DNA of 46,355 nt from a virus (IMGVR_UViG_3300030101_001156:1-46355), one strand, 5' to 3'. Positions 7,512 through 33,443 are shown, numbered from the stretch's first letter. Translations and numbers: made by a program. The notes: generated by a model from the sequence alone, not told the origin.

Positions 7512-7531
7512 ATGTAACTATAATATAGTAA
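7512..7531 (+). promoter_or_regulatory. 20-bp promoter-like repeat, copy 1
   Basis: ATGTAACTATAATATAGTAA occurs here and again, identical over all 20 bases, at 19491-19510. Both copies lie in short intergenic gaps just upstream of a structural gene, here 13 bases before an ATG and directly after a terminator. The TATAATA core resembles a -10 box. A phage-specific or sigma-dependent middle/late promoter is the most likely reading; an operator is the alternative. Confidence 0.65.
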
Positions 7532-12100: not shown

Positions 12101-15100
12101 AAGGAGCTGATATAAGTAAAGTATTTGAAAGTGATGATGTAAATATGTATCTCAAGCTAGATGCTTTATTACCTGAAGGTTCTACTTTGTCGCAAGCTGC
12201 TGTTGATGATGATAATGCTGAAGATGACTACATAAAATACTACATGGAATTTAGGGATAAGGTTGTTGAAAACCACCCACAATTTGATGGTAGATTTTTT
12301 GTTAAAATAGAAAAGGACAATATATTAGAAGAACAAGTTTTAAATCAATTCGGTGGTGATTACGTAAATGATGGTGCTGCTGTTAATATAGCTTATATAG
12401 CTAATCTTCAATATAACCCAGCTCAAGCCGGCGACGCTGGTAGCTTTGGTGGTCAATCATGGGACGATTATGGTGATAATACGGACTTCACTGATTCTAC
12501 CATAGGTCTTGGTGTTGGTACAGAGTTTGTTGATGGCGCTTGGAGAGTACCTTTTCCAAACCCTCAAAATAATATAAATAACAACGACGTTGGTCCTAGC
12601 GGTATTGTTTCCGCATATTCTACGAACCATTGGAGTGATGTTACTTGGAATTATATAGATTATGACAATAACCCGTTTAATTTACACACTGATGCTGTTA
12701 GTAGTTTTGGACCAGGAGACCCAGTGGCAACAGAAAATTTTTGGAACTGGTGGTTAAACCAAGGTGAAGGAGTAAACCCTGCTAGAACAGCAAATATATT
12801 TTTAGATTCAGCTCCGGCTTATGATAACTTTTTTATTAGTAGAACTCTTGATATAACATATTCTTCATTTGATAACTGGGAAGGTGGTGGAACCTACACT
12901 TTTAATGAAGGATTAGATTTATTTGGCTTACCAGTAAACAGTTTTTATATAGGCACAAAAGATAACTATGAGCAAACAGGTAATCCAAATCAACTTAGTA
13001 TAGCTGGTGGTGATTTACTAATGCCCGTTAGTTTAGGACAAAGAGGTATATTTGGACCTGAAGAAAATTTTTGGCCAGCTAATCATGCTGGATTTAGTGG
13101 TGGCACTGAAAGTTGTACTAGTTATCACCCGTCTGGACTAACACAAGGTTTAGCACAAGATGGTGAGTTAGGTCAAATGACGCTTTCCATGATAGGTAAC
13201 GATACTGGATTTGGTAACGGGCCAGAACAAGTATTTAAAGCTAGAATGCAAACGCCGGGTACTTATTTTAGATTTACTGGCGATCCATTAGGTAACGTAT
13301 ACAAAGTAATTACTAATAGAGAAAACGTCCCAAAAAGACATTTAAGCGGTATTGATAACGGGCAGGGTATAGATCACGCGTTTGTTAAAGATATAGAAGG
13401 CCCTATAGAAGTAGATAGTATAAACTTTCCAGATGATAATGTTAATAACCTTACTAGAAAAAGGCACTCAATAATAGTTAGGTTTCTTAGGGTAGAAGCC
13501 GGCATTGATTTAGATGGCACTGGTGTACAGCCAGATCAGTGGGACCCAAGAGGTCAAGTAAAGCACAACGGTTTAGGTCACTTTGGAATACAATTTTTAT
13601 TACCAACTACTAACGGCGAATTATTAGAAGATGAAATATTATCTAACGGAGCTTGTTTTGAAACAGAGCCTAAAGAAGATTTAGATGTAGATATATACTA
13701 CGAGGCTAGTAATGCTATACCAATGCGACTTAAAAAAGATAATATAAAGTCATTTGTTGATTCAAATTTCTCACCTAATGACGCTAGTAAAGTTGGCGTT
13801 GATAGCAGGGAACTAATCGCAACTGACGTTAATGGTAATAACATTTTAGAACCAGTAAATTTAGATGCTGAAGATTATTATCTTAGAGTAAGTTCTAACG
13901 TTGGTAATACAACATATCCTTTATTTGAAAATCCTTTTATTTACACAACTATTGGCAACGATATTATAAATTTAAAAAATATAACAAGTGTCGCTAGTAG
14001 TCAAGAGGTTATAGATATGCCTTACATGGCAAAATATCAAATAGTTGTGGAAGATACTTTATTTGGTACACTTCAAACAAACGAGGCTGTAAAAATAAAA
14101 GGCGTTACTATAGGTGATATAATATCTTTTACAAACTCAAGTGGTCTTGTGACTAGAACTCAAGTGTTAGATCACGTGCTACCTATAGATTCGACTGGTG
14201 AGTACGTGTGGGATGTCAACGCTTTTGATTTTACAGCTTATAATTCTTTTGATACAAGTAGACCAACAACTAGATACACTGTAAGTGATTGTGAAGAAAC
14301 AGAGTTTGTTACAAATCCTGTAACATCAACTATATTAAAGTTTGATAGTCAAGGGCAGTTAAATCAAATTATGAATAACCTAGAGGTAGGTATGGAGGTG
14401 ATAGGTGATCATGTAGAAAAAGGAACATTTATTAGAAAACTAGAACCAGTTAATCCTATTATAATATTTGGTCAGCATAAAATTCACTTAAATAGACCGC
14501 TTTTAAACACTGTTGAATTACCAACAAGTTTTACATTTATTAAAACAACTGGATGGTATCAAATAGATACAGACGTATACAAGTATCCTGTTGAATTACC
14601 TTGGTTTAATTGTTATTCTTTTGGTAATGGTGTAGAATCTGATAGAATAAGAGATGATTTTAACGCGCCTCAAATAGATAATGGTATAAAGGTTAGTTCG
14701 GTGTTTTTAGAGTATGCCGAGGAACACATAGGATCAGGTTTAATACACTCTTCAGAATTATTTAACGCTACGTCTAGCGTAAATGGCTTGAACCAATTTA
14801 GTATGGCTCAAAAAATAACTAAAAATTTAAATCCAATATATGGCTCTATACAAAGATTAAAAACTAGAGACACTGATGTTGTTACTTTTTGCGAAGATAA
14901 AGTATTAAAAGTTTTAGCAAATAAAGACGCTATATTTAACGCAGATGGTAACACTCAACTTACAGCAACCAATAGAGTGTTAGGGCAAACAATACCATTT
15001 GCTGGTGATTACGGTATATCTAAAAATCCAGAGTCATTGGCGGTAGATAATTATCGTATGTATTTTACTGATAAGCAAAGGGGTGCTGTTATGAGATTAT

Positions 15101-17208
15101 CACAAGATGGGTTAACACCTATATCTAACGTTGGTATGAAATCTTATTTTAGAGAGTTTTTACCTAAATGCGAAAATTTAGTTGGTACATTTGATGTTGT
15201 AAAAGGTGAATATAATCTAAAGCTAGGTATAAATGAAATTAATCAAACGGAAACTATTTGTAATGAAACTGGTTGTAGTGCGGTAGCCGAGCCGATAACG
15301 TTATCATTTAATGAGGGTGGTAAAGGTTGGGTAAGCTTTAAATCTTTTATGCACTCTTGCGGTGCTTCTGTAACTGGTAAATATATCACGGCGCCTACAA
15401 ATAAGCACGTGGTTACACATAAAATATGGAAGCATAATTCTAAAGATTCTAATAGAAATAATTTTTATGGAGAAGGTTATACCTCTACTATAGACGTTTT
15501 ATTTAATGATCAACCAGATTCTATTAAGCTATTTAAAACAATGGGGTACGAGGGCACTAAAGCTAGAATACTTACTGATACACAAGATAATAATTATTAT
15601 AATTTACAAAATGGTCCAGGTTGGTATATTAGTAGTATTATAACCGACTCTCAAACTGGTAGGGTTCCAGAGTTTATAAATAAAGAAAATAAATTTTATA
15701 ATTATATTGTTGGCGAAGAAACAACAGTTGACGATATGGACACTAGTGATTTTTCTGTTCAAGGCATAGGTTATCCTTTACAAATTGGCGCAACAACAGA
15801 AACGTCTACAACCCAGACTACATTTACAACAACGGGTGGTGTTAATACTGGTGGGCCAACTACCCCTGAGGACAATATTAATACTGATACTGATACTGAC
15901 AGCGGCAGTGGTGTTGATAACACTGGTAGCGATGGTATTGTTAGCAACACTGATAGTGATGGTGATGGAGTTGTTGTTGGTAGTGACAGTGAGTCTACTG
16001 ACGGTCAAGATGATACGGTGGTAGAAGTTGAAATAGAAAACGAAGAAACAATTGATGCAAACGCTCTTCATATAGACGAAGTAATTGTTATGCAAGGCAC
16101 CGCGATGGGTGGTGATGTTAGATATAATATATTAGCAAAAGTATCAGGTGGTAGCGGTGATTATAGATTTAAACTTTCAGTTAGAGGAACAGAACTGTTA
16201 CCAAGCGGACTATTAAGTACAATTATCAATCCTTTTCCAAATGGAGTAAATTATAATACTGAAACTGCTATTCAAAACGCAGAGCCGAACTGGGCCACCA
16301 GCCCCGGCTCTGGAACGTTTTATGATCCACCACAAGTTGGTTCGTGGGATACCGGTGGTTCTGATTATGAGTTTGTTACGACCGTGGTAGATGGGGTAAG
16401 TAATAACGTGCCATTTTATCATATAGTTGATTCCTCAGGAATGGTTCCATTTAATTTTGATTGGAGTTGGGGTGAGTATCAATTTGCTAGTCACACTCAG
16501 TTCCCAATGGGTCTTCGACCTAATGAATCCGAATTAAGCTACGGTATTGGTAGCACTAACGCACTTACATACTCGCTTACGGTATTTGATAACGCTGATG
16601 TTGGATCTGTTACAGGGACGTTCCTTGAGGGATTTGGGTTCCCGGTACATCTTGACGCCGACGGTAACTACGCGCAACCTTCACATACTATATGTTTTGT
16701 TGAAAATGAAGAGAACTACATAGCTCCAACACCAATTGAGATACCTGGTTTTCCATCTAATGCAAGTAATTTTTTAACTGACGGATTTTTCCAATACACT
16801 CAATTAACTGTTCTCTTTCAGCAATCAGCAGGTGAAGGTGTTAGTTATTATAGTCTTAATATAAACAATATCAACTTTAACGTTAACGATCAAGGCACAG
16901 GTGCGTTAAACGATCCTTGCCCATGTAACGAGCTAGATGAGTTTATACAACAAAACAATGTTACAATACAACTTTTATATCCAAGTGGAAGCGTTGCTAC
17001 TATACACTCTCCAGAAATGGGGCAACCTAATTTAAGTGTTGGTTATTTAACTGCTGGCCAATACCAACTTAGATTGTCTACTATAGACGTATCTTGGTGG
17101 GAAGATTATCAATATTATGATTTTACAATAGAGGAAGTTGGTAATCCTGGTAATCAAAGTGGCGTTATCGCGTGGTTGCAGGCTACCTTTTTAACTCCAT
17201 CAATATAA
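9199..17208 (+). CDS. Giant tail (stabilisation-type) protein, 2669 residues
   Basis: A very long structural protein. It opens with FTGGKMNKDLDERLVPNGQY then RDALNIQV, the typical start of large tail-stabilisation proteins of marine and crAss-like podovirus-type phages. Further conserved segments are DDLLFWTDGYNEPKKINIER (near 340-360), VGYRYKYEDGEYSTFSPWSE (near 540) and a repeat-type beta domain near 1875-1965 (YGSIQRLKTRDTDVVTFCED; AGDYGISKNPESLAVDNYRM; YFTDKQRGAVMRLSQDGLTP), where a beta-propeller-like fold is plausible. Residues ~2198-2288 are a Thr/Asp/Gly/Ser linker. The last ~380 residues are a separate beta-rich domain with different base composition, a good candidate for a host-contact or receptor domain. 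Role: tail hub or needle complex, inferred from family resemblance and place in the structural operon. Confidence 0.65.
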   Translation: MPELKHNFTGGKMNKDLDERLVPNGQYRDALNIQVRTTDGDGRGIGDSGTVQNIEGNENIAEAYLTTGYNYEKDWNTTRFVGSIANEKDDKAYFFAAAPTPTHEHGDWTAAILNVFEGVNLISSNQINEDDFPPDNYITSIAEIIPEVSSPQNFNANENYYDALVQQLYVESQSPYIKDTKKHWIDSIVQVNAKEESYRNLFVDKFAVTGRWIDVVGGEDMLPENFGPNSDYPLTPGFTELLVMDGSHYRIGMKVRFVNNMGQEMLFANGVDSEDGIGVEIINIQGNVLSLATAQQADIYGQAAGYLEKVSWQSAFLFQYPERVLEFDPFKLISSINIIDDLLFWTDGYNEPKKINIERSREGTQEIYVGVPDHTKLFVSDNEEGVPDLVEVEDMEWSIDTSDIKREHITVIRQAPTTAPTLFMRDSNRDGIINFNINYVFIDGENYDPAFPETGDERIVTLDQNYDIQEGDILKFTSADNVLDPVIISVRVIEIFGELVQGGVKVEILTVDPELSVYNPSEWNVELEQENALFETKFGRVGYRYKYEDGEYSTFSPWSELAFLPGNFSYTPSQGFNNGMENQLRHLVIKDFIPDDSIRPNDVKAIDLLWKTTDDQSVYIIKTVTRGRSNEWKNFDDLELENYGKTTITSEMINKVLSSDQLFRSWDNVPKSAITQEITANRLVYGNYKQGYNINKDVSLIQNVISTPVNFPTPKKSVKSIRNYKWGVVLGDRYGRETSVLVDGYESGTNQVITGDITVDKSLSSFQNKFKLKQDWQFPPNSILKWAEYAKYYVKETSNEYYNLILDRWYDSGDGNIWLSFPSVDRNKVDEETYLILKNAHGNQNPVSVKAKYKILAIESEAPDFIKTNFNTYERVEIDQLGIYGIDSGDADNSEAVLGEITNGIPASLINKNVIRTTNNNWEDVGIQNDDAKGQLEMRIVGLQAFYNIEAYSPWRDVSRLKTTGSRKGADISKVFESDDVNMYLKLDALLPEGSTLSQAAVDDDNAEDDYIKYYMEFRDKVVENHPQFDGRFFVKIEKDNILEEQVLNQFGGDYVNDGAAVNIAYIANLQYNPAQAGDAGSFGGQSWDDYGDNTDFTDSTIGLGVGTEFVDGAWRVPFPNPQNNINNNDVGPSGIVSAYSTNHWSDVTWNYIDYDNNPFNLHTDAVSSFGPGDPVATENFWNWWLNQGEGVNPARTANIFLDSAPAYDNFFISRTLDITYSSFDNWEGGGTYTFNEGLDLFGLPVNSFYIGTKDNYEQTGNPNQLSIAGGDLLMPVSLGQRGIFGPEENFWPANHAGFSGGTESCTSYHPSGLTQGLAQDGELGQMTLSMIGNDTGFGNGPEQVFKARMQTPGTYFRFTGDPLGNVYKVITNRENVPKRHLSGIDNGQGIDHAFVKDIEGPIEVDSINFPDDNVNNLTRKRHSIIVRFLRVEAGIDLDGTGVQPDQWDPRGQVKHNGLGHFGIQFLLPTTNGELLEDEILSNGACFETEPKEDLDVDIYYEASNAIPMRLKKDNIKSFVDSNFSPNDASKVGVDSRELIATDVNGNNILEPVNLDAEDYYLRVSSNVGNTTYPLFENPFIYTTIGNDIINLKNITSVASSQEVIDMPYMAKYQIVVEDTLFGTLQTNEAVKIKGVTIGDIISFTNSSGLVTRTQVLDHVLPIDSTGEYVWDVNAFDFTAYNSFDTSRPTTRYTVSDCEETEFVTNPVTSTILKFDSQGQLNQIMNNLEVGMEVIGDHVEKGTFIRKLEPVNPIIIFGQHKIHLNRPLLNTVELPTSFTFIKTTGWYQIDTDVYKYPVELPWFNCYSFGNGVESDRIRDDFNAPQIDNGIKVSSVFLEYAEEHIGSGLIHSSELFNATSSVNGLNQFSMAQKITKNLNPIYGSIQRLKTRDTDVVTFCEDKVLKVLANKDAIFNADGNTQLTATNRVLGQTIPFAGDYGISKNPESLAVDNYRMYFTDKQRGAVMRLSQDGLTPISNVGMKSYFREFLPKCENLVGTFDVVKGEYNLKLGINEINQTETICNETGCSAVAEPITLSFNEGGKGWVSFKSFMHSCGASVTGKYITAPTNKHVVTHKIWKHNSKDSNRNNFYGEGYTSTIDVLFNDQPDSIKLFKTMGYEGTKARILTDTQDNNYYNLQNGPGWYISSIITDSQTGRVPEFINKENKFYNYIVGEETTVDDMDTSDFSVQGIGYPLQIGATTETSTTQTTFTTTGGVNTGGPTTPEDNINTDTDTDSGSGVDNTGSDGIVSNTDSDGDGVVVGSDSESTDGQDDTVVEVEIENEETIDANALHIDEVIVMQGTAMGGDVRYNILAKVSGGSGDYRFKLSVRGTELLPSGLLSTIINPFPNGVNYNTETAIQNAEPNWATSPGSGTFYDPPQVGSWDTGGSDYEFVTTVVDGVSNNVPFYHIVDSSGMVPFNFDWSWGEYQFASHTQFPMGLRPNESELSYGIGSTNALTYSLTVFDNADVGSVTGTFLEGFGFPVHLDADGNYAQPSHTICFVENEENYIAPTPIEIPGFPSNASNFLTDGFFQYTQLTVLFQQSAGEGVSYYSLNINNINFNVNDQGTGALNDPCPCNELDEFIQQNNVTIQLLYPSGSVATIHSPEMGQPNLSVGYLTAGQYQLRLSTIDVSWWEDYQYYDFTIEEVGNPGNQSGVIAWLQATFLTPSI
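15790..16060 (+). repeat. Thr/Asp/Gly-rich low-complexity linker in the giant tail protein
   Basis: The DNA is a degenerate run of ACT/GAT/GGT codons encoding TDTDTDSGSGVDNTGSDGIV and DSDGDGVVVGSDSESTDGQD. It joins the conserved body of the tail protein to its C-terminal domain. The DxDxDG units look like calcium-binding loops. The degenerate repeats also open long spurious frames on both strands. Confidence 0.75.
16280..16312. other. Strong GC hairpin inside the tail gene
   Basis: CAGAGCCG (16280-16287) and CGGCTCTG (16305-16312) are perfect inverted repeats; nested inside are CTGG (16290-16293) and CCAG (16298-16301). It is far richer in G and C than the surrounding genome and lies inside a coding region at the start of the C-terminal domain. 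It is not followed by a T tract, so it is not a terminator. Confidence 0.5.
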
Positions 17209-19490: not shown

Positions 19491-19510
19491 ATGTAACTAT
19501 AATATAGTAA
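19491..19510 (+). promoter_or_regulatory. 20-bp promoter-like repeat, copy 2
   Basis: ATGTAACTATAATATAGTAA, identical to 7512-7531. It begins 11 bases after a stop codon and ends 18 bases before the internal virion protein start. The exact conservation of 20 intergenic bases 12 kb apart in otherwise drifting A/T-rich spacers implies a protein-binding function, most simply a promoter for the ejection-protein genes downstream. Confidence 0.65.
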
Positions 19511-19527
19511 TAATTTAAACAACTAAT

Positions 19528-20322
19528 ATGGCAGAAGAAAATCAACAAGAAGGAGGTGGCTATGGTTTTATGAATTTTTTAAATCAAGCTGCTACACCTA
19601 TAGGTATGGGTTTATCTATAGGCTCAAGTATATTTGGTGCTATATCAGCAAATAAAGAACAAAAAAGAGCAGCTAGAAAAAGAAAAAGAGAAGAGGCTAA
19701 AATGAAAGAGATGGAGGATATATATAAAAATCTTGATACTAGCAACCCATATCTTAATTTAGAAAACACAATGGAAGATTTAACCATTGACCAAAAACAA
19801 GCAGACTTTGAAAGACAATCATTTCAACAAACACAAGCTAACATAATGACTAATTTAGCTGGAGCTGCTGGAGGTAGTGGTATAGCTAATCTAGCTCAAT
19901 CACTAGCTCAACAAGGCCAAATAGCTGCTCAAAAACAAGCAGCTAGTATAGGTCAACAAGAGAGAGCTAATCAAATGGCTAGACAGCAAATGGCTGGGCA
20001 AATACAATTACAAGAAAGACAAGGTGAAATAATGTCTAGGGATTTAAAAAGAGAACAAACTAGTACTTTATTAGGCATGGCTCAACAAAGAACCGCTGCC
20101 GCAGCACAACAAGAGGGCGCTGCTAAGCAGGCTAAGGTAGATGCTATAACAAGTGGTTTAACAGGTGCCGCTCAAATGTTTGCTGGATTTGGTGGGGACT
20201 CAGTTCAACCTGGTGGTATATTTGGAGAATCAGGGGCCAGCGCAAGCGGGAGTACTGGTGGAGTTCCTAATACACAAAAATATTTAAACACGGGCGCTTT
20301 AAATCCAAATTACGAAGAATAA
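19528..20322 (+). CDS. Internal virion (ejection) protein, gp14-like
   Basis: A 264-residue protein with an N-terminal Gly-rich amphipathic segment (ATPIGMGLSIGSSIFGAISA, near 19-40) followed by a basic helix (KEQKRAARKRKREEAKMKEM). A long Gln/Ala-rich helical region (near 90-215) follows, with NLAGAAGGSGIANLAQSLAQ and QGQIAAQKQAASIGQQERAN. This pattern, a Gly-zipper-like hydrophobic segment plus Gln/Ala-rich coiled helices, is that of short internal virion proteins that leave the head with the DNA and help open a channel across the cell envelope (T7 gp14-type). It is the first gene after the promoter-like repeat and sits upstream of the giant ejection protein, in the order seen in many podovirus-type genomes. 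Confidence 0.65.
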   Translation: MAEENQQEGGGYGFMNFLNQAATPIGMGLSIGSSIFGAISANKEQKRAARKRKREEAKMKEMEDIYKNLDTSNPYLNLENTMEDLTIDQKQADFERQSFQQTQANIMTNLAGAAGGSGIANLAQSLAQQGQIAAQKQAASIGQQERANQMARQQMAGQIQLQERQGEIMSRDLKREQTSTLLGMAQQRTAAAAQQEGAAKQAKVDAITSGLTGAAQMFAGFGGDSVQPGGIFGESGASASGSTGGVPNTQKYLNTGALNPNYEE

Positions 20323-21896: not shown

Positions 21897-24800
21897 ATGA
21901 ATAAAAGATATAAATTCACCATGGATGGTGTGGTAAAATATAGAAACGTTGCTCCTGGTAAGGAGGACGCTTTCTTTGAAAAGTATGGGCAATACAATCC
22001 TGTACTAGTAACAGAAAATCCAACTACAAAATCTTTCATGTCCACTCCTAAATCAGAACTAACTGAAGATGATTTAGTTAAAATAGAAGAGTGGGTTAGC
22101 TCATTAAAAACACAAGAGCCGGGAAAGGATATAGGGGTGGAACAACCCCAAACTCAAGAGACGGATCTGTCTCAAGAAGATCAGCAAAAAATAGAAGGGA
22201 ATACGGAATTAGATTTGGTAAAATCTTCTTCGGAATTACTATCGAACACAGTAGATAATAAATTTGGAATTGGAGGGTTTGGTTCTTTAGTAAATAATTT
22301 AGATATAGATTCTGTAAAAACAAATAATATAAACGCTTTACAAAAAGATTTATTTTCAAATTATAGAGAATTAGAAAAAGATATACTTATAAAAGATAGT
22401 TTAATTTTTGAGCAATATAAAAATAATGACTTGCCAATTGATAAATATGGAAAGTATGAAAAAGATTTATTTGCTGATACAAATGAAGATCTTAACAATT
22501 TGTATAACGAAGACAAACAGTTAATAGATTTTAATAATATAAATTTAGGTGAGTACAAATTTAAATCTGAAGAAGAATACGATAGATTTATGCGAAATAG
22601 ATCTATTAATAATAAAAATATAATTAAAGGTAAAACAATTGACTATGGGTACGAAGGACCATATTCAATTAATCACATGTCTATTTATGATATAAACAAA
22701 GACGGTGTAGTGACAAAAGCTGAAGAAACAGAGTATAATAGAAGGCAACAGTTTAACAGGGAGCGTAATAATAAAATATCTAAATATTATGAAGAGTTAG
22801 AAAAAGGCCCAAACAAGTTGCAACAAATTGGTGATAATTGGGATTCAATTGTTAACAATTATAAAGAGCTTGATGAAACAGAATCAGAGTTAGTTGAAAG
22901 CATCGGAAAAAAAGACAAAGCGGTTATTTTTTATAACGGAGCCACAGATACTTATCATTGGGTTAAAAGTCACGCTCAATCAGGCTTTTATGAATATTGG
23001 AAAAATAAAGATGAAGCTAATCACCATCCAAATGACAAGTGGTTTACTAGTGACATATATTATAAAAAAAGTGGTAGCGGTGAAATTTTAGGTAACGGAA
23101 ATTTTCGTGTGCATGGAGGAATCGTTTACCCTAAAGATATTTATACAGGAAAAGGAGTTGTTGCTGGCGACGACTATAGTAATATTTCTTTTATTATTCA
23201 GCAAAATGAAAAAGTACAAAAATCTCTTTCTGTTGGTAATTGGAAAGAAGGTTTAAATACTGGTCAAATAAGCTACGAGTTAGAAAGAATGAATAATTAT
23301 ACTTATTTTAATTCTTCGTATATAATGGATCGAGATATTGATGAAGAGCGTTATAATTCTGAAACTTTTAGAATTAGCGCAGACGAATATATAGAAATAA
23401 ATACTAAACTTTATAATGAAAACGCGAAAATATATGAAGAGCAAGTAACGCCTATTATAGATGAGTATATTAATAACTACTATAGTGAGCCAGAGTATAT
23501 AGAAAAAGTAAATAATATAGTAAAAGAAATAACGCCACAAATACTTGAGCAATTAAAACCAGAATTTGGCGAAGTAATTCAATTAGAAGATGGTACTATA
23601 ACAACTCAAGAAATAACAAATAAATTTAAAGAGCAAGCAGAAGAGTTGCACGCTGTTTATTCGGGTTTAGTTTTAACGTTACCAACCGATGCTGATGGTT
23701 ATCCTACTGAAGCTAGTATAAAAAAATTACAAAAAGAATACAACAAAGAATTAAGCGAATTATTTGAGGGTTTACACGCTGATATATTTACTGAGTATAA
23801 TAATAATATAACTAAATCTTTAGAAAATAATCCTTATATAATAGAGCGACAAGCTACTTTGCAAAAAGAGTTAGAATTAGAATCAGAAAAATTGTGGCAA
23901 GAATTTCTTAAAAATAATAATCAAGGTTATAGTTTGTGGGAGATTAGTAAATTAGAAGAAATAGCTAATCAACTTGACAAAGCTGGGTTCGCGAGAATGG
24001 ATAACTTGCAAATGCAAGATAGATTTTTAATGTTAGAATACTATTTAAAAGGGGCGTTAAAACAAGCTGAAAGAGAAAACCCTGACAAGTTTGCGGACCC
24101 TCAAATTAGAGCAAGATATATAGAAGAATACTACGATTATTTTTACGATAAGCTAGCCGTCATGGCTACGCGACATGATGAGCACATACAGAATAATGAT
24201 TTTTGGATTAAACTACAAGCTCAAGAAATGAATTTAGACGCTGAGTTTGGTTATAACCGTGTTTACGAAGACAGGTTTGGAAACGAACAGATGAAAGGTG
24301 TTACAGTTTATTATCCTAAAGATAAAGGTAATAAGTACAACACGGGCCAACTTTATGCAGATGGAACTAGTAATCAACCTACTGTTATATACGAAAGTAA
24401 TATTATGTATTACTTATATTCCGACTCAGACTTTTGGAAAAAAGAAAGAAACAAATACCCAAACGATCCAATCAAGCAATATGAATATGCCGCTGAAAAA
24501 TACGGTGTTACTGAAACTTCTACAGCCTGGGCAAAACAAGTTGTTCAAGATGGTGGTAGATACTATAGAATGGTAACTAGTAAATCTGGTAAATGGCATG
24601 AAATAGAAGGTGGTTTTGATCCAAGTAAAAATTTAGAGATAGCTACAGAATTGTTAGGCAGAAGATGGGTTAGAGGAACCGGCAACAATGATAGCTTTAT
24701 AAGTCAAAAAAAATTAATAAAAGAAATGTCTATTGGCATATTAGAAGCTCCAACTTCTTTATCGGACTTAGGTGATAGTAGACTAGGAAGATTTTGGAAC

Positions 24801-27800
24801 GGTTTTACTAGCGGTCCAGGTCATGAGTGGATGCCATTTTTTGGTTGGGTACCAGAGGCTAAAAGAAAAGATAAAATAAAACAAATAGTTGATAAAGATC
24901 CTAGCGAAAGAACAGAGTTAGAAGATCAAATACTAACAATATACGGAATGAAACAGCAGGTAGATCAGCAAGTTAGTGAACTATCTTCTTGGTACAATGG
25001 TGGTAGAATAGCTAAAAAATCTGTACCATTTGTTCTAGAGTTTATTGGAACCGGTGGTGTAGGTAAAATGGTATCAACTGGTATTAAGACTAGTATAAAG
25101 AAAAGCGTAACAGCAAAGCTTGCTAATATAACTGTAGATAAAACTGGTAAACTAGTTTTAAGCAATGGTATGAAGTTGTCTACCGGATATAAAATGACTG
25201 ATAAGGCTATTGATTTCACAGCCTTTGTTATGGGTGTTAACGCTAGGGCTAGCACGGGTGGGTTGGGCCATACTATAAACAATACTGTAGGTAGAATGAC
25301 AGACGAGGTGATTTGGACATTAAGTACTGATCAAGATGGATTAATACAAGGCATAGATGCTATTACCGCCTCTGATCCACAAGGTATTGAGTTAGGTCTT
25401 AAAAAAGGCGAAGCATTTACTGAGGCTTTTTCTAGATCATATGGTATGACATTTGGTGAATACATGACTGAATCTATAGGGTTTTTATTACCTGGTATGG
25501 GAAGAAGTATGCTTAATATACCAGGTATAGTTAAGAAAGGTGGCACTAGATATGGTGATGTAATTTTTGATAGCGATGTATATAAAAGGCTTACGCTAGC
25601 TCATTTTATGAGAGAAAAAGGTTTTACAACTACAGCAGAAGTTACAGAGTGGATGGGCAAAAACGCTGGTTGGCACGGTGTGTTTGGGGAATTAGGTGAA
25701 GAATATATTAATATACCTTGGCAAAACTTAATGGAAGGACACGGCACTCCATTGCTAGCGGGTTTTCTTGAATATGATATAAATGGTAATGCAATTGGCA
25801 TGGACTGGGATTCTCAGCAAGAAATGTGGATAGGTATTGGTAGTATGGCGTTTGCTTTTAGCGGTACTGGTTTGGCTGTTAGTAAAGTAACTGGGGCTCA
25901 AGGTAAATACTATGAGGTTAGTCTTAATAAAAAAACAGCATTAAGGTTTAATTCAAAAAAAGCTCTTGATAGATATTTAAAAAGATTAGAAAGCGATGGA
26001 TTTTTTAATAATCCTAATAATCAAATACACTTAAAAACATATAACGACTATGCGGCCGCCGATGAATATAGAACTTTACTTGAAACGTATCGTTTAGCTG
26101 AATCATCAATGGCTGAGATAGATATACTAGAAGATGGTGGTAAGTTAAATGAAAATCAAAAGGGAGAGTTATTAACTATAAATAATAGGCTAGATGAACT
26201 TAATAGAAAAAGGTTTTTAACTGAAGCTGAAACTCTTGAGAAAAAAGAATTAGAATCTAGAAAAATAGAGTTAACTGGTGGTATAGAATTAAGACATACT
26301 ATTGAGGCTGATGGCACTAATAAGTTAACTACTGGCAAAACTATAGTAGCTAATGAAATAGATATATTATCTGTAGACGAAAAAGATGGTGGTCTTAACG
26401 AAGAGCAAAGATCAGAATTACTTTCTATTAATGATGAGTTAACTAAATTAAATAGCAAAAGAGGTAAACTAACAGAAGCTGAATTAAAAAGAAAGCGAGA
26501 ATTAGAAGTTGAGAAAAAGAAACTTATAGGTAATATTGAGAAAAAAATATTAGAAAGAAAAAGTAAAAGAGCTTACAACGAGCAGGTTAAAAAAGTAAAA
26601 GCTATTATAGAAAAGCAGGGGCTTACTGGTAAAATACAGATTACAGAAGAAAAAGGAGATAAAGAAACTAGGCAAAGCTTGTTAGAGTTATTTGGGTTAA
26701 CTGAAGAAAACGGAAAGTTCTTTGACATGCAAGGTAATGAAGTTACAAACATCGGCGTTAAGAAAGATAAAGATGGCAAAACAATAGATGAAGGACAGAG
26801 TATAGAAGATATATTTAAAGAACTACAAACAACGCATGGTTATTTTATACCAGCAGACATGTTAGGTAAAGGAGAGAAGAGCCACATAATAATAAACATG
26901 AGCGCTTCTTTTAAAAATCGTGGAGAAAATGTCGCGGCTCATGAATTTTTTCATTGGTACTTAAGTCAAGCGTTATCTAATACACCTGAATTAAAAATAG
27001 CATTAGGTGAATCGTTTAAAAGTTACTTAATGTCTATTGATCCCAAAGGTATTAGAGATAGTCAATTTAGACAAAGACTTGAAAACTATATAAATGAAGA
27101 CGCGGCCACTCAGTCTGAAGAAGCTATGGCCTTGTTCTTAGACGCTATAGCTAGTGGGGAACTTGCTTATAAAGAATCTTTAATGCAAAAGATAGGTACT
27201 ATTATAAAGCATTTGTTTAGAAGCATAGGTGTTGATATAACGTTAAATACTGGTAAAGATGTTTATGATTTTATAAAAGACTTTAATGATAGTATGCAGC
27301 GTGGTGATTTGTCAGCTAGTTTAATGAAGGCTTTAGAAAATAAAATAAAAGCTGGTGATCAAATGATAGAGCTTTCTAATAAAGTAAAGAAGTTTCAAAA
27401 AGAACAAAAAGAAGCTTTTGAGAAAAAGTTCAAAGAAGATCTTACTTTTAAATTTATACAAGCAGGTGTTGACGTAGACGACAAGACTATTGAAATGATA
27501 TTGAAAGCTTTTACAGACAATCCTACTAATAATGTTAAAAAATCTAAAACAGGTGGGTGGTCTACTGGAACTGAGATAGATCCAGTTGAAGTTAACGAGC
27601 AAGTTTATCAAGAGATTTTAAATAATGCTAAGAAGAATAATATACCTAATGATAAACTAAAAGACGCTGTAACACAAAGGATGCGTGATAAACTATTTGT
27701 AGCAAACATGGCTGCTGCTAATAAATATGCTGCTCAAGCTTACGCTAAAGGTAAGGCTGCTTTAAAAGGAACTGATTTTGTGGCAGCTACATTAGAAGAT

Positions 27801-30800
27801 TTACAGCAAGAGTTTTATGTAGAGCTAGTATTACTAACACAAAGATGGAACCCTAGCACAGGCGTTCCATTTGGTGCTTATGTTCAAATGCCAAAAGGTT
27901 TGCCTATAAAATATGGACAAGTATTAAATAGAGCTTTACAAAAAACAGGTTTAGTAACTCAATCACAAGCGGCACTTGAAGAAGCTGGCTATCAATTTAC
28001 TGACAACTCTACAGGTAGTACTAATAGTATATTACAAGAAGAGCAAGATAATAAGATATTAGTTAGAGATCAAATACTTAATTTACCAGATAATGTAATA
28101 GCTAATATAGAATCTGCTATTAAAAAGGCTAATATAAAATTAAAGAAAAAAGACGGTAGCGCTATATCGTATAAAGAAATAAAGCAAGAAGTTATAAAAG
28201 GAAAACTAAACGGTGTATTAGCAGATGTTGGTAACGCCTTTGGTATACCTACACAAAAGCTAGTTAAAAAATCTGATTTAAATAACGAACAAAGAACTAA
28301 TGCTAGAAATAAAATAGTAGAGTTAGCTAAGAATAATAATTTAATTGATTTGCTACCAGAAGCGCAAGACCAAAATGCTACATCGACAGAGATAGTAAGA
28401 ACTAAGTTTGGACAGTTTTATGAAAAGATAGCTGATAGAGCTTCCACAGCTGGAAAACAAACTGTTGGTGGTCAAAAAATATTTGCTAAAAGAACAGGTG
28501 GTCAAAAAGCTTTATATGCTAAAATGGATCAAGTTCCTAATCAAGATATATTAGATATATTCGGTATTAATCAAGATGGTTCTTTTCAAAGTGGAACAAG
28601 ATATGATGGTGCTATAAGAGAGTTTGCTATTCAATTAGCTACCGCTGCTGCTAATCAAGAGTTAAGATTAGATGCTGCTAGAAAAGGTGTTGATAAGAAA
28701 ACAATTGAAGATGTTGCTAGTGGTAAGTCTAGAATACTATTTGCTAAGAGTGCTAATGAATCTTTTGAGCAAGTTGATAATACAGAATCTTTAGTAGAAA
28801 GCAAACAAGGTAATAACGTACTAGCTCCTTTCGAATTAGACTTAGTTAAAAATGATGCTTTATTAAAAGGTAAGAATTTACGACCAATGCTGAGAATAAA
28901 GAAGGTAGAAGACGTAAAACCTTGGATAGACGAGCTTATAAAAATAGGATTTTTTAAAGCGTTTCCTATAGAATTTTTCTTTAATACAACCGCGAAAAAT
29001 GACTTACAACAAACACACCCTTATTCTATAAAATACAATACTACAAAAACGAATGCATCTATATTTACATCTAGCTCACAAAATTTAGGACTAAGTTCTA
29101 GCAGTGAAGCTTGGAAAGAGTTCCGCCTTCAAATACAAGAACTGTACGAGAACAATAAAGATAACAAAAATTTTTGGGGCAAGCCGTTTAAAGGTGTGGA
29201 TATGGGTAAAATGTTTTCACTTAGAGGTTCTTATGATAGCTTTTTTACTGTTAACAAAAGAATAACATTACCAAACGGCAAAAAGAAAACAATAAAAGTA
29301 TACAGCCCTAAAAAAGCTAGAGAAAGTAAAAAACAAATAGAATATTTTAATGATCAAGTTGGTAAAATTCACAAGCAGATGTGGATGCGTATACTTAATA
29401 TAGTAAAAAGTAATAGAAATAATGCAACTGGTATATCTATGTTTTTATCTTTTGTTGGTAATGATACCCAGCACTGGCATAAGCTTGGCGCTCAAATAGA
29501 AGGGTTTTCTACAAATATAAAAGGTAAAAGAGTAGAGTACGAGCATGCTATGCCGGCAACAAAAGCTTATTTGTATTTATTAAATGCGGCACTTGGTGAG
29601 GATATAAACTTTGAAGCGGCTTATAACTTTTTAATACAGAACTTTAAATTAATAGCCCTTGATAAATCTATGGACGATAAACTTCGTCTTGCTATAACAG
29701 AGGCTGGTTATAGTTTGCAGAAAGTAATGCCTGATAATTGGAGCGTTATTGATGGTAATTGGTGGGAAAGATATTTTAATACTATTGTTGAGGCTATAAA
29801 CGGAGGTATAGACCCTTCTACTATTGAAGACATTAACGGTGTTACGCTAGATGTTAAATATAATGTAAACGCTAGTGGTGGTATAATGAGGTCTAAAACT
29901 TCTTCTGATATAAAAACAACTAACAACTTAACTCAAGCTATTAGCAATAGAATAATGCAGAGCAAGACTGGTAAGACAAAAGGTATGTCAACATTTGATT
30001 TTGATGACACATTAGGTTTTACTAAGTCAGGTGTTAGAGTAACAATGCCTAATCCTGAAGGTACACCTAAACCAAAACGTAAAGTTATATTCTTAGCTGG
30101 TGGAGCTGGTAGTGGTAAAGGTAACGTAATTAATAAGCTAGGTCTAGAAGGTATGGGCTTTAAAATTGTAAACTCAGATATATCATTAGAGTGGTTAAAG
30201 AAAAACTCAGGACTACCTGCTGATATGCGAGACTTAACTAAAGAACAAAGAAGTACATTAGGTAAGTTAGGAGCTCAGGCTAGGAAAATAGCTAAACGTA
30301 AAATGATGAAGTACCAAGGTGAAGGTAACGGTGTTATTGTAGATGGTACTGGTGGTTCTGCAAAACAAATGCAAAAGCTCGTAGATGAGTTTCAAGCTAA
30401 AGGATATGATGTTAGTATGTTATTTGTAAATACTTCATTAGATGTAGCCTTAGAGCGTAATAGAGCTAGAAAAGAAAGATCATTGTTAGATGTCATAGTT
30501 AAACGTAATCACGAGGCTGTACAAAATAATAAGCCTACATTTAAAGAGATGTTTGGCAAAAGATTTATGGAGGTTAACACAGATAAGTTAACTCAAGAAA
30601 GCCCTATGCCAAAAACTCTTGTAAACAAGATGAACGACTTTGTTTCAGGTTATGAAAAGCGTAGAATAGATGCCACAGAGTTCGCGGAACAAGGAGCAGA
30701 GATATTAGAGCAAGGTGGCAAGTTTGACTTCTCAGAATTTAATGATGTAGTTGATGGAACTCCTGGGCCATTACTTGATAAGGCAAAAGAAAGAGCTGCT

Positions 30801-33407
30801 AAGTTTGGTACTAAAGACATGTTTGTTTTAACTGCTAGACCTCAAGCATCTGACAAAGCCATACATGAGTTTTTAAAATCACAAGGTTTAAATATACCTT
30901 TAAAAAATATAACCGGTTTAGCTAACAGTACTGGTGAAGCAAAAGCGAAATGGATGTTAGAAAAATTTGCTGAGGGTTATAATGATTTATATTTTGTAGA
31001 TGACGCTTTAGCTAATGTTGAAGCTGTAAGAGAAGTATTAGATCAACTAGATGTTAAATCTAAAGTTGTACAAGCTAGAGTTAAGTTTAGTAAAAATGCA
31101 AGCGTAGACTTTAATAAAATGCTTGAGCGTAAAAAAGGTATACCATTTGATGAGGTTATATCTGGACCTGAAGCTAAAAAAAGAGGTAGAGGCAAGGGTA
31201 GATGGGATTATTATATACCACCATCTGCAGAGGATTTTAAAGGTTTGTTATATTACTTTATAGGTAGAGGTAAACAAGGAGAAGAAGACTTAAAGTTTCT
31301 AGCAGAGTATCTTCTTAAACCATTTGCTAGGGGTATCAGAAGCTGGAACGCTTATAAACAAAGCATGGTTAACGATTTTAAAAATCTTAAGAAACGTTTT
31401 CCGAAAATAAAACTAAACAAAAAAATTAAAGGAACAGAGTTTACAAACGACACCGCTATTAGAGTTTATTTATGGGATAAGTCTGGGTTTGATATCGAAG
31501 GCTTGTCAGTTCAAAAACAAAAACAATTAGTAGACTATGTTAATAGTAATCCCGATATAAAGAAATTTGCTGACGCATTATCTATATTAAGTAAAAGAAA
31601 AGAAGGTTATTTACCACCTAGCGAAAATTGGATGATGGAAACTATACCTACTGATTTAAGAAATATAGTTGATAAAATAGGTAGAAAAGAATTTTTGCAA
31701 GAGTGGATTGAAAATAAAAACATAATATTAAGTAGACAAAACATAAATAAAATAGAAGCTGTTTATGGTTCTTGGTTTAGAGAAGCACTAGAAGATATAT
31801 TATTCCGTATGGAAAACGGTGGTAATAGAAAATCTGGTGGTAACAGAACTGTTAACTTCTTTACAGAGTGGATTAATGATTCTATTGGAGCTATCATGTT
31901 CTTTAATATGAGATCTGCTTTACTTCAAACTATATCTACAGTTAACTTTATAAATTGGGGTGATAACAATTTATTTAAAGCTGCTGGAGCTTTTGCTAAT
32001 CAACCTCAATTTTGGGCTGACTTTGTTATGTTGTTTAATTCTGATCAACTAAAACAAAGAAGAGGTGGTTTACAAACAGACGTATCAGCATCGGAACTAA
32101 CAAAATCGTTTGCTGAAAATGGTTATAGTCCTAGAACTTTATTAAGAGCCTTGCTACAGTTTGGTTTTACACCAACACAAATTGCAGATAGTTTTGCTAT
32201 AGCTTTTGGTGGTGCTAGTTTTTATAGAAACAGATATAATACTTACATAAAAAAAGGTATGACACCCGAACAAGCTAACGAACAAGCAATGTTAGACTTC
32301 CAGGAAATAGCAGAAGAAACACAACAGTCCTCAAGAGAAGATTTAATATCACAACAACAAGCTACATTATTAGGTAGGTTTGTTTTAGCTTTTCAAAACG
32401 TTACAATGCAATATGGTAGATTAACTAAGAAAGCTTTATCAGATCTTGTTAACAATAGAGGTGATATAAAAACTAATGTATCTAAAATACTTTACTATGG
32501 CCTTGTTCAAAACATTGTGTTCTCAGCTTTACAATCAGCGTTAGCATTTATAATGTGGGGAGATGATGAAGAAGAAATAAAAAATAAAACAGATAGAGTA
32601 GCTAACAACGTTTTAGATTCATTTTTAAGAGGTACGGGTTTATATGGAGCGTTAGTATCTACACTTAAAAACACAGTTATACAATGGAACCAACAACAAA
32701 AAGCTGAATACGGTAAAACAAGGGTTGAGAAAGTAGCGTTAGCAACACTTGATCTATCACCACCAATAGGTAGTAAAGTAAGAAAAATAGTAAACGCTTT
32801 TTATTCAGAGTACTACGATAAGGGCGTGTCTGATGAATTAGGGTTAAGAATTGAAAATCCTCAAGTTAGAAAGTGGGCTTACATAATTGAAGGCGCTACT
32901 AATATACCTTTAGCTAGATTAGTTAATAAAGCTAACAACTTAGAAGAAGCTGTAACAGGTAGTCATGAAACTTGGAAAAGAGTTATGATGGCTATGGGTT
33001 GGAGTATGTGGGAGCTTGGTGTTAAAGATGAAGAGCTTGAGGCCGCAAAAGAAACTGCTGAAACAAAAAGAGAAGAGAAAAGGAAAATAGAAAAAGAAAA
33101 AGAAAAAGAACAAAAGAAAAAAGAAAAAGAGTTAGAGAAAAAGAAAGAAGAACAAAGACTAAAAGATGAGGGTTACAAAAGCATTAGGTGCTCTGGTATA
33201 AAATCAAATGGAAAGAGATGTAGTATAATGTCACAACCTACTAAAGATAAAAAATTCTTATGTTATCACCACATGGCATTTACCGACGGCATGGATAGAG
33301 ATGGCGATGGTATTAAAGAATATAGATGTACTGGCATTAAAAAGAACGGTAAGAGATGTAAGAATAAAACAGAGAACGAGAATAAAAGATGTTATGCTCA
33401 CCAATAA
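21897..33407 (+). CDS. Giant multidomain ejection protein, 3836 residues
   Basis: Layout by residue: EF-hand loop D265-I-N-K-D-G to E276; long charged coiled coils (to ~900); hydrophobic Gly-rich region (~1030-1350) with FGELGEEYINIPWQNLMEG, a candidate channel segment; coiled coils (~1440-1570); zinc peptidase motif H1682-EFF-H1686 with possible third ligand E1741 or E1742; sigma-70 region 2-like segment (~1930-2010, DLQQEF at 1968); unknown domain (~2335-2620); HAD motif D2701-F-D2703-D-T; inserted P-loop kinase (GGAGSGKG 2735-2742); remaining HAD motifs T2979, K3016 or K3018, D3035-D3036; conserved helical domain with hydrophobic helices (~3300-3600); Lys/Glu coiled coil (~3690-3760); tandem Cys/His modules C3765-H3792 and C3811-H3835. 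It follows an internal virion gene, so ejection into the host with the DNA is likely. No RNA polymerase DxDGD motif was seen. Individual enzyme activities are inferences from motifs. Confidence 0.7.
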   Translation: MNKRYKFTMDGVVKYRNVAPGKEDAFFEKYGQYNPVLVTENPTTKSFMSTPKSELTEDDLVKIEEWVSSLKTQEPGKDIGVEQPQTQETDLSQEDQQKIEGNTELDLVKSSSELLSNTVDNKFGIGGFGSLVNNLDIDSVKTNNINALQKDLFSNYRELEKDILIKDSLIFEQYKNNDLPIDKYGKYEKDLFADTNEDLNNLYNEDKQLIDFNNINLGEYKFKSEEEYDRFMRNRSINNKNIIKGKTIDYGYEGPYSINHMSIYDINKDGVVTKAEETEYNRRQQFNRERNNKISKYYEELEKGPNKLQQIGDNWDSIVNNYKELDETESELVESIGKKDKAVIFYNGATDTYHWVKSHAQSGFYEYWKNKDEANHHPNDKWFTSDIYYKKSGSGEILGNGNFRVHGGIVYPKDIYTGKGVVAGDDYSNISFIIQQNEKVQKSLSVGNWKEGLNTGQISYELERMNNYTYFNSSYIMDRDIDEERYNSETFRISADEYIEINTKLYNENAKIYEEQVTPIIDEYINNYYSEPEYIEKVNNIVKEITPQILEQLKPEFGEVIQLEDGTITTQEITNKFKEQAEELHAVYSGLVLTLPTDADGYPTEASIKKLQKEYNKELSELFEGLHADIFTEYNNNITKSLENNPYIIERQATLQKELELESEKLWQEFLKNNNQGYSLWEISKLEEIANQLDKAGFARMDNLQMQDRFLMLEYYLKGALKQAERENPDKFADPQIRARYIEEYYDYFYDKLAVMATRHDEHIQNNDFWIKLQAQEMNLDAEFGYNRVYEDRFGNEQMKGVTVYYPKDKGNKYNTGQLYADGTSNQPTVIYESNIMYYLYSDSDFWKKERNKYPNDPIKQYEYAAEKYGVTETSTAWAKQVVQDGGRYYRMVTSKSGKWHEIEGGFDPSKNLEIATELLGRRWVRGTGNNDSFISQKKLIKEMSIGILEAPTSLSDLGDSRLGRFWNGFTSGPGHEWMPFFGWVPEAKRKDKIKQIVDKDPSERTELEDQILTIYGMKQQVDQQVSELSSWYNGGRIAKKSVPFVLEFIGTGGVGKMVSTGIKTSIKKSVTAKLANITVDKTGKLVLSNGMKLSTGYKMTDKAIDFTAFVMGVNARASTGGLGHTINNTVGRMTDEVIWTLSTDQDGLIQGIDAITASDPQGIELGLKKGEAFTEAFSRSYGMTFGEYMTESIGFLLPGMGRSMLNIPGIVKKGGTRYGDVIFDSDVYKRLTLAHFMREKGFTTTAEVTEWMGKNAGWHGVFGELGEEYINIPWQNLMEGHGTPLLAGFLEYDINGNAIGMDWDSQQEMWIGIGSMAFAFSGTGLAVSKVTGAQGKYYEVSLNKKTALRFNSKKALDRYLKRLESDGFFNNPNNQIHLKTYNDYAAADEYRTLLETYRLAESSMAEIDILEDGGKLNENQKGELLTINNRLDELNRKRFLTEAETLEKKELESRKIELTGGIELRHTIEADGTNKLTTGKTIVANEIDILSVDEKDGGLNEEQRSELLSINDELTKLNSKRGKLTEAELKRKRELEVEKKKLIGNIEKKILERKSKRAYNEQVKKVKAIIEKQGLTGKIQITEEKGDKETRQSLLELFGLTEENGKFFDMQGNEVTNIGVKKDKDGKTIDEGQSIEDIFKELQTTHGYFIPADMLGKGEKSHIIINMSASFKNRGENVAAHEFFHWYLSQALSNTPELKIALGESFKSYLMSIDPKGIRDSQFRQRLENYINEDAATQSEEAMALFLDAIASGELAYKESLMQKIGTIIKHLFRSIGVDITLNTGKDVYDFIKDFNDSMQRGDLSASLMKALENKIKAGDQMIELSNKVKKFQKEQKEAFEKKFKEDLTFKFIQAGVDVDDKTIEMILKAFTDNPTNNVKKSKTGGWSTGTEIDPVEVNEQVYQEILNNAKKNNIPNDKLKDAVTQRMRDKLFVANMAAANKYAAQAYAKGKAALKGTDFVAATLEDLQQEFYVELVLLTQRWNPSTGVPFGAYVQMPKGLPIKYGQVLNRALQKTGLVTQSQAALEEAGYQFTDNSTGSTNSILQEEQDNKILVRDQILNLPDNVIANIESAIKKANIKLKKKDGSAISYKEIKQEVIKGKLNGVLADVGNAFGIPTQKLVKKSDLNNEQRTNARNKIVELAKNNNLIDLLPEAQDQNATSTEIVRTKFGQFYEKIADRASTAGKQTVGGQKIFAKRTGGQKALYAKMDQVPNQDILDIFGINQDGSFQSGTRYDGAIREFAIQLATAAANQELRLDAARKGVDKKTIEDVASGKSRILFAKSANESFEQVDNTESLVESKQGNNVLAPFELDLVKNDALLKGKNLRPMLRIKKVEDVKPWIDELIKIGFFKAFPIEFFFNTTAKNDLQQTHPYSIKYNTTKTNASIFTSSSQNLGLSSSSEAWKEFRLQIQELYENNKDNKNFWGKPFKGVDMGKMFSLRGSYDSFFTVNKRITLPNGKKKTIKVYSPKKARESKKQIEYFNDQVGKIHKQMWMRILNIVKSNRNNATGISMFLSFVGNDTQHWHKLGAQIEGFSTNIKGKRVEYEHAMPATKAYLYLLNAALGEDINFEAAYNFLIQNFKLIALDKSMDDKLRLAITEAGYSLQKVMPDNWSVIDGNWWERYFNTIVEAINGGIDPSTIEDINGVTLDVKYNVNASGGIMRSKTSSDIKTTNNLTQAISNRIMQSKTGKTKGMSTFDFDDTLGFTKSGVRVTMPNPEGTPKPKRKVIFLAGGAGSGKGNVINKLGLEGMGFKIVNSDISLEWLKKNSGLPADMRDLTKEQRSTLGKLGAQARKIAKRKMMKYQGEGNGVIVDGTGGSAKQMQKLVDEFQAKGYDVSMLFVNTSLDVALERNRARKERSLLDVIVKRNHEAVQNNKPTFKEMFGKRFMEVNTDKLTQESPMPKTLVNKMNDFVSGYEKRRIDATEFAEQGAEILEQGGKFDFSEFNDVVDGTPGPLLDKAKERAAKFGTKDMFVLTARPQASDKAIHEFLKSQGLNIPLKNITGLANSTGEAKAKWMLEKFAEGYNDLYFVDDALANVEAVREVLDQLDVKSKVVQARVKFSKNASVDFNKMLERKKGIPFDEVISGPEAKKRGRGKGRWDYYIPPSAEDFKGLLYYFIGRGKQGEEDLKFLAEYLLKPFARGIRSWNAYKQSMVNDFKNLKKRFPKIKLNKKIKGTEFTNDTAIRVYLWDKSGFDIEGLSVQKQKQLVDYVNSNPDIKKFADALSILSKRKEGYLPPSENWMMETIPTDLRNIVDKIGRKEFLQEWIENKNIILSRQNINKIEAVYGSWFREALEDILFRMENGGNRKSGGNRTVNFFTEWINDSIGAIMFFNMRSALLQTISTVNFINWGDNNLFKAAGAFANQPQFWADFVMLFNSDQLKQRRGGLQTDVSASELTKSFAENGYSPRTLLRALLQFGFTPTQIADSFAIAFGGASFYRNRYNTYIKKGMTPEQANEQAMLDFQEIAEETQQSSREDLISQQQATLLGRFVLAFQNVTMQYGRLTKKALSDLVNNRGDIKTNVSKILYYGLVQNIVFSALQSALAFIMWGDDEEEIKNKTDRVANNVLDSFLRGTGLYGALVSTLKNTVIQWNQQQKAEYGKTRVEKVALATLDLSPPIGSKVRKIVNAFYSEYYDKGVSDELGLRIENPQVRKWAYIIEGATNIPLARLVNKANNLEEAVTGSHETWKRVMMAMGWSMWELGVKDEELEAAKETAETKREEKRKIEKEKEKEQKKKEKELEKKKEEQRLKDEGYKSIRCSGIKSNGKRCSIMSQPTKDKKFLCYHHMAFTDGMDRDGDGIKEYRCTGIKKNGKRCKNKTENENKRCYAHQ

Positions 33408-33410
33408 ACG

Positions 33411-33429
33411 TGTGATTATATTATAGAAT
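33411..33429 (+). promoter_or_regulatory. Possible weak relative of the promoter-like repeat
   Basis: TGTGATTATATTATAGAAT lies 4 bases after the giant gene's stop and 14 bases before the next small gene. It matches the 20-bp repeat at about two thirds of positions, keeping TGT, TAT, TATAG. In A/T-rich spacer DNA such similarity may be chance. Confidence 0.3.
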
Positions 33430-33443
33430 CAAAACTTTAAAAT

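Follow-up and report, generated by a model that had tools for sequence, protein, structure and literature searches.

The 46,355-nucleotide stretch of viral DNA analysed here (IMGVR_UViG_3300030101_001156:1-46355, referred to as the window) is part of an incomplete virus record of 47,431 bp. Its terminase, portal and capsid-type genes resemble those of Flavobacterium, Cellulophaga, Maribacter and Tenacibaculum phages (Elemovirus, Pervagoviridae, Pachyviridae). The last gene of its virion cluster is a single open reading frame (ORF) encoding a multidomain protein of 3836 residues, here called the giant (Table 1). Within this protein, the original prediction had placed a segment resembling region 2 of sigma-70 factors at residues ~1930-2010, and the quoted residues are indeed the exact translation of window positions 27684-27926 on the plus strand. 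The domain as delimited by our analysis is longer than this segment on both sides.

The sequence of the segment was compared with known families and with bacterial sigma factors. When the 81-residue piece was searched against 24,736 Pfam families, Sigma70_r2 was the sole match at E<=1 (E 0.005; 17 bits, below the cut-off of 24), and a Sigma70_r2 scan of the whole 47-kb record returned this segment as the single location (E 3.5e-4). For profile-profile comparison, an alignment of eight members of the window's subtype (A4) was run with hhalign against 84 bacterial sigma factors (80 from genomes and four from E. coli). A score of 39.3 was obtained (P 2.2e-5; overall range 2e-5 to 3.5e-5), and none of 1000 column shuffles scored above 25.0. 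In an initial shuffle run, 5 of 1000 scored 132-141, all ending at the last query column and some only 4 columns long. These were judged to be an end-gap artefact, and the maximum given above stems from a rerun of the 1000 shuffles with ungapped end columns. Sliding windows over the entire giant gave the top score against sigma factors at this segment (33.6; next 22.5). The hhalign register is co-linear over sigma regions 1.2 to 2.3, placing LEDLQQEFYVEL under LDLIQEGNIGL and PFGAYV under KFSTYA. The acidic/Gln motif of region 2.2, which contacts the beta' clamp, reads LEDLQQE in the window and LDLIQE in RpoD, and is partly altered in some relatives (QSG, VSG). As these two motifs align, the D, Q and E positions of sigma70, which we take to be D403, Q406 and E407, are kept in the window.

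Structure prediction points in the same direction. An AlphaFold model of the window segment reached a mean predicted local distance difference test (pLDDT) score of 70 overall. The top Foldseek rows were sigma factors, with E-values all 0.23 or worse, and VIA-align placed the model on SigA over 101 residues with a Z-score of 9.3. Compared with the isolated region 1.2-2 of RpoS (5h6x), 94 of 96 residues were matched at 2.8 Å and Z 9.1. A second model, made for a member only ~20% identical to the window, showed block means of mostly 88-95 over its first 120 residues, and the top 16 VIA-align rows for it were all sigma factors or sigma complexes, T4 gp55 included. The region 2 helix bundle is present in both of these predicted models. 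Since sequence register, fold and two subfamilies agree, the segment is, on the grounds of sequence and modeling, a divergent homologue of sigma region 1.2-2.4 beyond what chance would give, which bears out the resemblance first proposed. Neither of the two outcomes named in the original prediction as contrary to it, a lack of significant profile similarity and a model without the region 2 helix bundle, was obtained.

Relatives were collected through a portal protein search yielding 80 related viral contigs, from which the giant gene was taken where sequence sufficed, and additionally from an alignment search and further records. The segment profile detects 31 giants among the collected relatives, the last few weakly, and wider profiles pick up further, distant giants with the domain. 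Members are strongly divergent from one another, and one distant member matches the PhyR sigma-like domain of Pfam (E 0.0073). With the clade profile, no sigma-like domain was detected in the giants of elemo, Callevirus, phi19:3, Panino and the metagenomic genome MW202828, though a more divergent copy could escape this search, and Pfam likewise gave no sigma-like match in three of these five. Searching bacterial genomes for the domain returned no matches. A PDB sequence search found no match with the single sequence, and only weak dephospho-CoA kinase matches, confined to the downstream part, with the first alignment. In the larger subtype, the region 2 sequence has drifted while the next motif, SIDKPISExGTxADVIE, aligns with sigma region 3.2 (SLDxPIGxDxxLGDFIED). 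This alignment, obtained with the relatives' profile, scored 30.2-32.1 (P 7e-4 to 1.4e-3), a level reached by 0 of 250 shuffles. Further downstream, within the clade-specific conserved domain, the stretch LxAVxxxFGVDxxRI (LxAVSxEFGVDPLRI) is marginally similar to the helix-turn-helix of region 4.2 (hhalign P 0.006, score 23.6 compared with up to 23.2 in shuffles). The resulting motif order, 2 - 3.2 - (4), is that of a sigma factor lacking region 3.0-3.1, where the region 4 part is weak and we put no weight on it.

The location of the giant was addressed by homology. Its residues ~957-1275 match phi40:1 gp101, a virion protein verified by tandem mass spectrometry (E 2.7e-23), and the same stretch also matches structural proteins of elemo and phi19:3. 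As in phi40:1, elemo and phi19:3, the gene is the last of the virion cluster. In PhicrAss001, cargo proteins including parts of the polymerase are stored in capsid and tail and then ejected (PMC10172136). We infer that the present phage packages the giant in its virions and ejects it together with its DNA. A zincin-type metalloprotease motif, HEFFH, lies upstream of the sigma-like domain. The elemo giant carries a zincin motif in the corresponding stretch, and in relatives the motif, where matched, is found upstream of the sigma-like domain. Self-processing of the giant is possible.

Host-type promoters were then compared between the clade and its relatives. The sigmaA box of flavobacteria is TAnnTTTG (PMC9723704). 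It was found before 0 of 95 genes in four clade members, where about 4 would be expected. In contrast, the box is enriched in relatives which have neither a detectable sigma-like domain nor a sigma gene: 12 of 22 in elemo (1.5 expected), 7 of 36 in phi40:1 (1.3), 7 of 33 in Panino (1.9) and 8 of 20 in MW202828 (1.1). This difference indicates that the clade dropped host-type promoters, and with early genes lacking them, a specificity factor must come from somewhere. An RpoC-type phage RNA polymerase was sought with two families and one motif. PF00623 was absent, PF00940 was uninformative with its control silent, and a scan of long ORFs for DxDGD gave two matches, both in tail-type proteins and neither polymerase-like. 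Shine-Dalgarno signals are missing from the window and from its relatives, and A is preferred at position -3, as in flavobacterial phages and unlike in a Pelagibacter phage; the host of the clade is therefore likely a member of the Bacteroidota.

Mapping three relatives with nearly complete genomes (67, 67 and 71 kb) brought out two classes of promoter-like elements. Class A is a rigid 24-bp element, TAAATACGA-N9-GATAAT (GATAATA), mostly with ACAAA upstream, of which the early regions of four genomes (G026, G007, G008 and G005) contain 26 sites, 4-10 copies each. The spacing is always 9, every site is oriented with the early genes and found only before them, and no sites occur in shuffled genomes. 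Several lie so near the ATG that the mRNA would be almost leaderless. A pattern search using class A alone returned 29 records, mostly with at least 2 copies, and in 24 of the 29 there is a portal related to that of this phage, which marks class A as characteristic of the phage clade. The sites end ahead of a stand-alone sigma gene. Because the early genes have no host-type promoters and the sigma gene lies behind class A, whatever reads these elements would have to be there at time zero, and the leading candidate is the virion sigma-like domain.

Class B (TGTAAYTATA...) is partly palindromic, with a core that varies among relatives as TATAATATA, TATATTATA or TATATAATA. In the near-complete relatives, its first copy directly follows the stand-alone sigma gene and later copies precede the virion operons, which is why class B looks middle or late. 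The stand-alone sigma itself has ~250 residues, comprises regions 2 to 4 and is encoded at the boundary of early and middle genes. Such genes were found in 6 of 19 clade records (5 above the Pfam cut-off) and in 0 of 6 outside relatives. That the virion domain is a recent copy of this sigma was considered and is unsupported (hhalign P 0.19). It had also been suggested that a 20-bp repeat, present in two exact copies at window positions 7512 and 19491, might be the target of the virion domain. This part of the original prediction does not hold up well, as the repeat belongs to class B and goes together with the stand-alone sigma and the virion operons; it is more likely a target of the stand-alone sigma, and the better candidate target of the virion domain would be class A, in the early region outside this record. 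Behind the sigma gene, the class B copy (G026 64483, G007 4909, G008 64210) is followed by a conserved ATATAGACCAAAACC before an ERF-like gene, possibly an extra signal.

Table 1. Features of the giant gene and class B elements in the window
Feature	Position	Strand	Evidence or remark
Class B promoter-like element ATGTAACTATAATATAGTAA (first copy of 20-bp repeat), 5' of ORF at 7545	7512..7531	+	Exact repeat; position kept in most relatives
Class B promoter-like element (second copy of 20-bp repeat), 5' of ORF at 19528	19491..19510	+	Exact repeat; position kept in most relatives
Giant virion/ejection protein (putative), 3836 aa, multidomain	21897..33407	+	Open frame; residues ~957-1275 match virion proteins
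Zincin-type metalloprotease motif HEFFH, 5' of sigma-like domain	26940..26954	+	Residue 1682
Sigma region 1.2-2.4-like domain (includes 27684-27926)	~27546..27944	+	Pfam, hhalign with controls, AlphaFold and structure comparison
Degenerate linker copy resembling sigma region 3.2; relatives read SIDKPISExGTxADVIE	27945..28010	+	Relatives' profile; window copy eroded
Clade-specific conserved domain (LPEGxDxSGxATG ... DGAIR ... NQEIR)	28020..28760	+	Alignments A1-A3
Variant class B element TGATTATATTATAGAATC, 3' of giant gene	33413..33430	+	Same place in relatives, e.g. G026 at 49141

Taken together, these observations suggest the following scheme. The giant would be packaged in the virion and ejected along with the DNA, and its sigma domain 2-like module, perhaps released by the upstream zincin-type protease domain, would bind host core RNA polymerase at the beta' clamp like sigma region 2. 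It would then direct the polymerase to the early promoters of class A (TAAATACGA-N9-GATAATA), which are not expected to be recognized by host sigmaA (TAnnTTTG). The 9-bp TAAATACGA box might be recognized by a different part of the giant or by some other ejected protein. The early operons would encode the separate, ordinary sigma, which would in turn drive replication and virion genes from their class B promoters (TGTAAYTATA...). As an explanation of the whole, an ejected sigma-like domain acting on class A through the host core, followed by the stand-alone sigma acting on class B, stands in our estimate at an even balance between right and wrong. The more general statement, that a virion-carried sigma reprograms the host polymerase before the first phage transcript in a two-step cascade for which host-type promoters were abandoned, is made tentatively, at slightly under even confidence. 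The earlier idea of a sigma-like piece delivered with the genome to direct host polymerase thus stands in part: region 2 homology, virion-protein relatives and the loss of host-type promoters support it, while ejection, core binding, promoter assignment and proteolytic release are steps that we infer.

A number of points speak against this scheme. The Trp pair of regions 2.3-2.4, used in -10 melting, is not kept (FGAYVQMPKG in place of FSTYATWW), and we consequently do not claim the domain as a primary-type (group 1) sigma. Sigma region 3.0-3.1 is missing as well, and promoter recognition would thus have to differ from that of primary sigmas. The Pfam Sigma70_r2 scores lie under the curated cut-off, the phage's stand-alone sigma fails to align with the domain, the Foldseek E-values are poor, and Z-scores of 6-9 are for a helical bundle no proof alone. 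The early region is absent from the window's record, class A being seen in relatives only, and some class A-bearing records have no detectable domain, whether because it has diverged, is truncated or is truly absent. A virion RNA polymerase of a divergent crAss type could have escaped the two families and one motif searched. Finally, the evidence for the scheme is computational.

Some of these points would fit an ejected sigma mimic or decoy that binds core RNA polymerase or, PhyR-like, a host anti-sigma, and so blocks host transcription or frees a host sigma, with class A being read by another factor. Sigma mimicry is an established use of the sigma-2 fold, the melting tryptophans and region 3.0-3.1 are missing, and a distant member matches the PhyR sigma-like family. 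However, class A, having no host box, would then be left without a reader, and relatives have stretches similar to region 3.2 and, marginally, to region 4.2, suggesting that the domain descends from a whole sigma; we regard a mimic or decoy as unlikely. It is also conceivable, if distinctly unlikely, that the reader of class A is a host factor, either an alternative sigma or the host sigma via GATAAT, and that the virion domain has a different or no transcriptional role. GATAATA does resemble a general -10 box, the clade is uncultured, and flavobacteria have several extracytoplasmic function (ECF) sigmas and a sigma54 (PMC9723704). On the other hand, Bacteroidota hosts are indicated and their main box, TAnnTTTG, is depleted here and enriched in relatives; the rigid TAAATACGA-N9-GATAAT with its upstream ACAAA is unlike the consensus motifs consulted in PMC9723704, and of the 29 records retrieved with the class A pattern by itself, 24 are from this phage clade.

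The strong divergence among members and the position of the domain between structural stretches of the giant could also mean that the ejection apparatus has recruited a sigma-2 fold as a building block, inert or in contact with DNA, that has nothing to do with transcription. We consider this very unlikely, given that the D, Q and E positions facing beta' are kept in the window and that the domain accompanies a clade-wide promoter switch and a stand-alone sigma. As each score is modest by itself and members show stray weak matches to several other Pfam families, a helical bundle arisen by chance or convergence and unrelated to sigma factors was weighed too. Profile, fold and motif order are concordant in independent subfamilies, though, and shuffles, sliding windows and independent fold matches rule out chance resemblance, making such an origin extremely improbable.

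Further features were noted in the giant and its surroundings. Residues 2725-2878 (window 30069-30530) form a P-loop kinase of the Zeta-toxin/AAA_33 type (E 1e-9), flanked by HAD-phosphatase-like motifs, FDFDDTL before and FVDDALANVEAV after it, which suggests a polynucleotide kinase-phosphatase arrangement. Relatives of this kinase region that are 30-40% identical occur in Pelagibacter, Methylophilales and Agrobacterium phages. At the C-terminus (window 33180-33404), two cysteine/histidine-rich repeats, RCSGIKSNGKRCS...CYHH, are weakly DUF5763-like. The elemo giant has a DUF3293 domain at residues 1323-1392 (E 1e-12), for which the window's giant has no match at E<=1. A 2669-residue tail protein (window 9199-17208) has a match to the crassvirus muzzle C-terminal domain (E 1.5e-6), which ties these flavobacterial phages to the architecture of Crassvirales. 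In one relative (G039), the portal gene at 9692-12010 has one internal TAG within its reading frame, which may reflect stop reassignment or a sequencing error.

Several known systems share parts of the proposed arrangement. T4 gp55 is a sigma built around region 2 and redirects the host RNA polymerase, which shows that such a sigma can work, and it aligns with a divergent member of the domain family (7d7c chain F; 119 residues, Z 6.0, root-mean-square deviation 6.2). It is a late product of the infection that acts together with gp33 and the clamp, whereas the present domain is embedded in a giant virion protein. The response regulator PhyR, which titrates an anti-sigma, has a sigma-like fold and is weakly matched by one member in Pfam, but its receiver domain was not found here. 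Virion-delivered transcription has precedent in N4, crAss-like phages and P23-45. The N4 (Schitoviridae) virion RNA polymerase is also a giant, of ~3,500 aa, which is ejected and initiates early transcription (PMC12633501); there the whole polymerase is injected, while here only a sigma-like specificity module was found and the host core would serve. P23-45 gp96 and gp66 of crAss-like phi14:2 carry a transcription function fused to or borne as a virion protein, and P23-45 has an AT-rich phage-specific early motif, but both proteins are polymerases and not sigma factors (PMC10770324). The giant further shares with the polyvalent proteins (Iyer et al. 2017, PMC5512222), which are multidomain, encoded near virion genes, thought to be injected and equipped with zincin, kinase and other domains, its zincin motif, its Zeta_toxin/AAA_33 kinase and its place at the end of the virion cluster. 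The word sigma is absent from the text of PMC5512222, so the sigma-like domain, which the giant combines with these features, appears new to polyvalent proteins.

In conclusion, searches of the open-access literature brought up no report of a phage sigma factor that is carried in the virion. Sharply delimited candidate promoters, one rigid 24-bp and one partly palindromic element, make the claim directly testable, and if true, it would provide orthogonal sigma/promoter pairs for Bacteroidota. Phages inject RNA polymerases (N4, crAss-like phages, P23-45) or enzymes that modify the host polymerase (T4 Alt), and a packaged sigma would, if true, be a third and much cheaper route to seize transcription at time zero. 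It would be to bacteria what tegument-borne activators of transcription, such as VP16 of herpesviruses, are to their hosts, and would explain how a group of marine phages does without host-type promoters.

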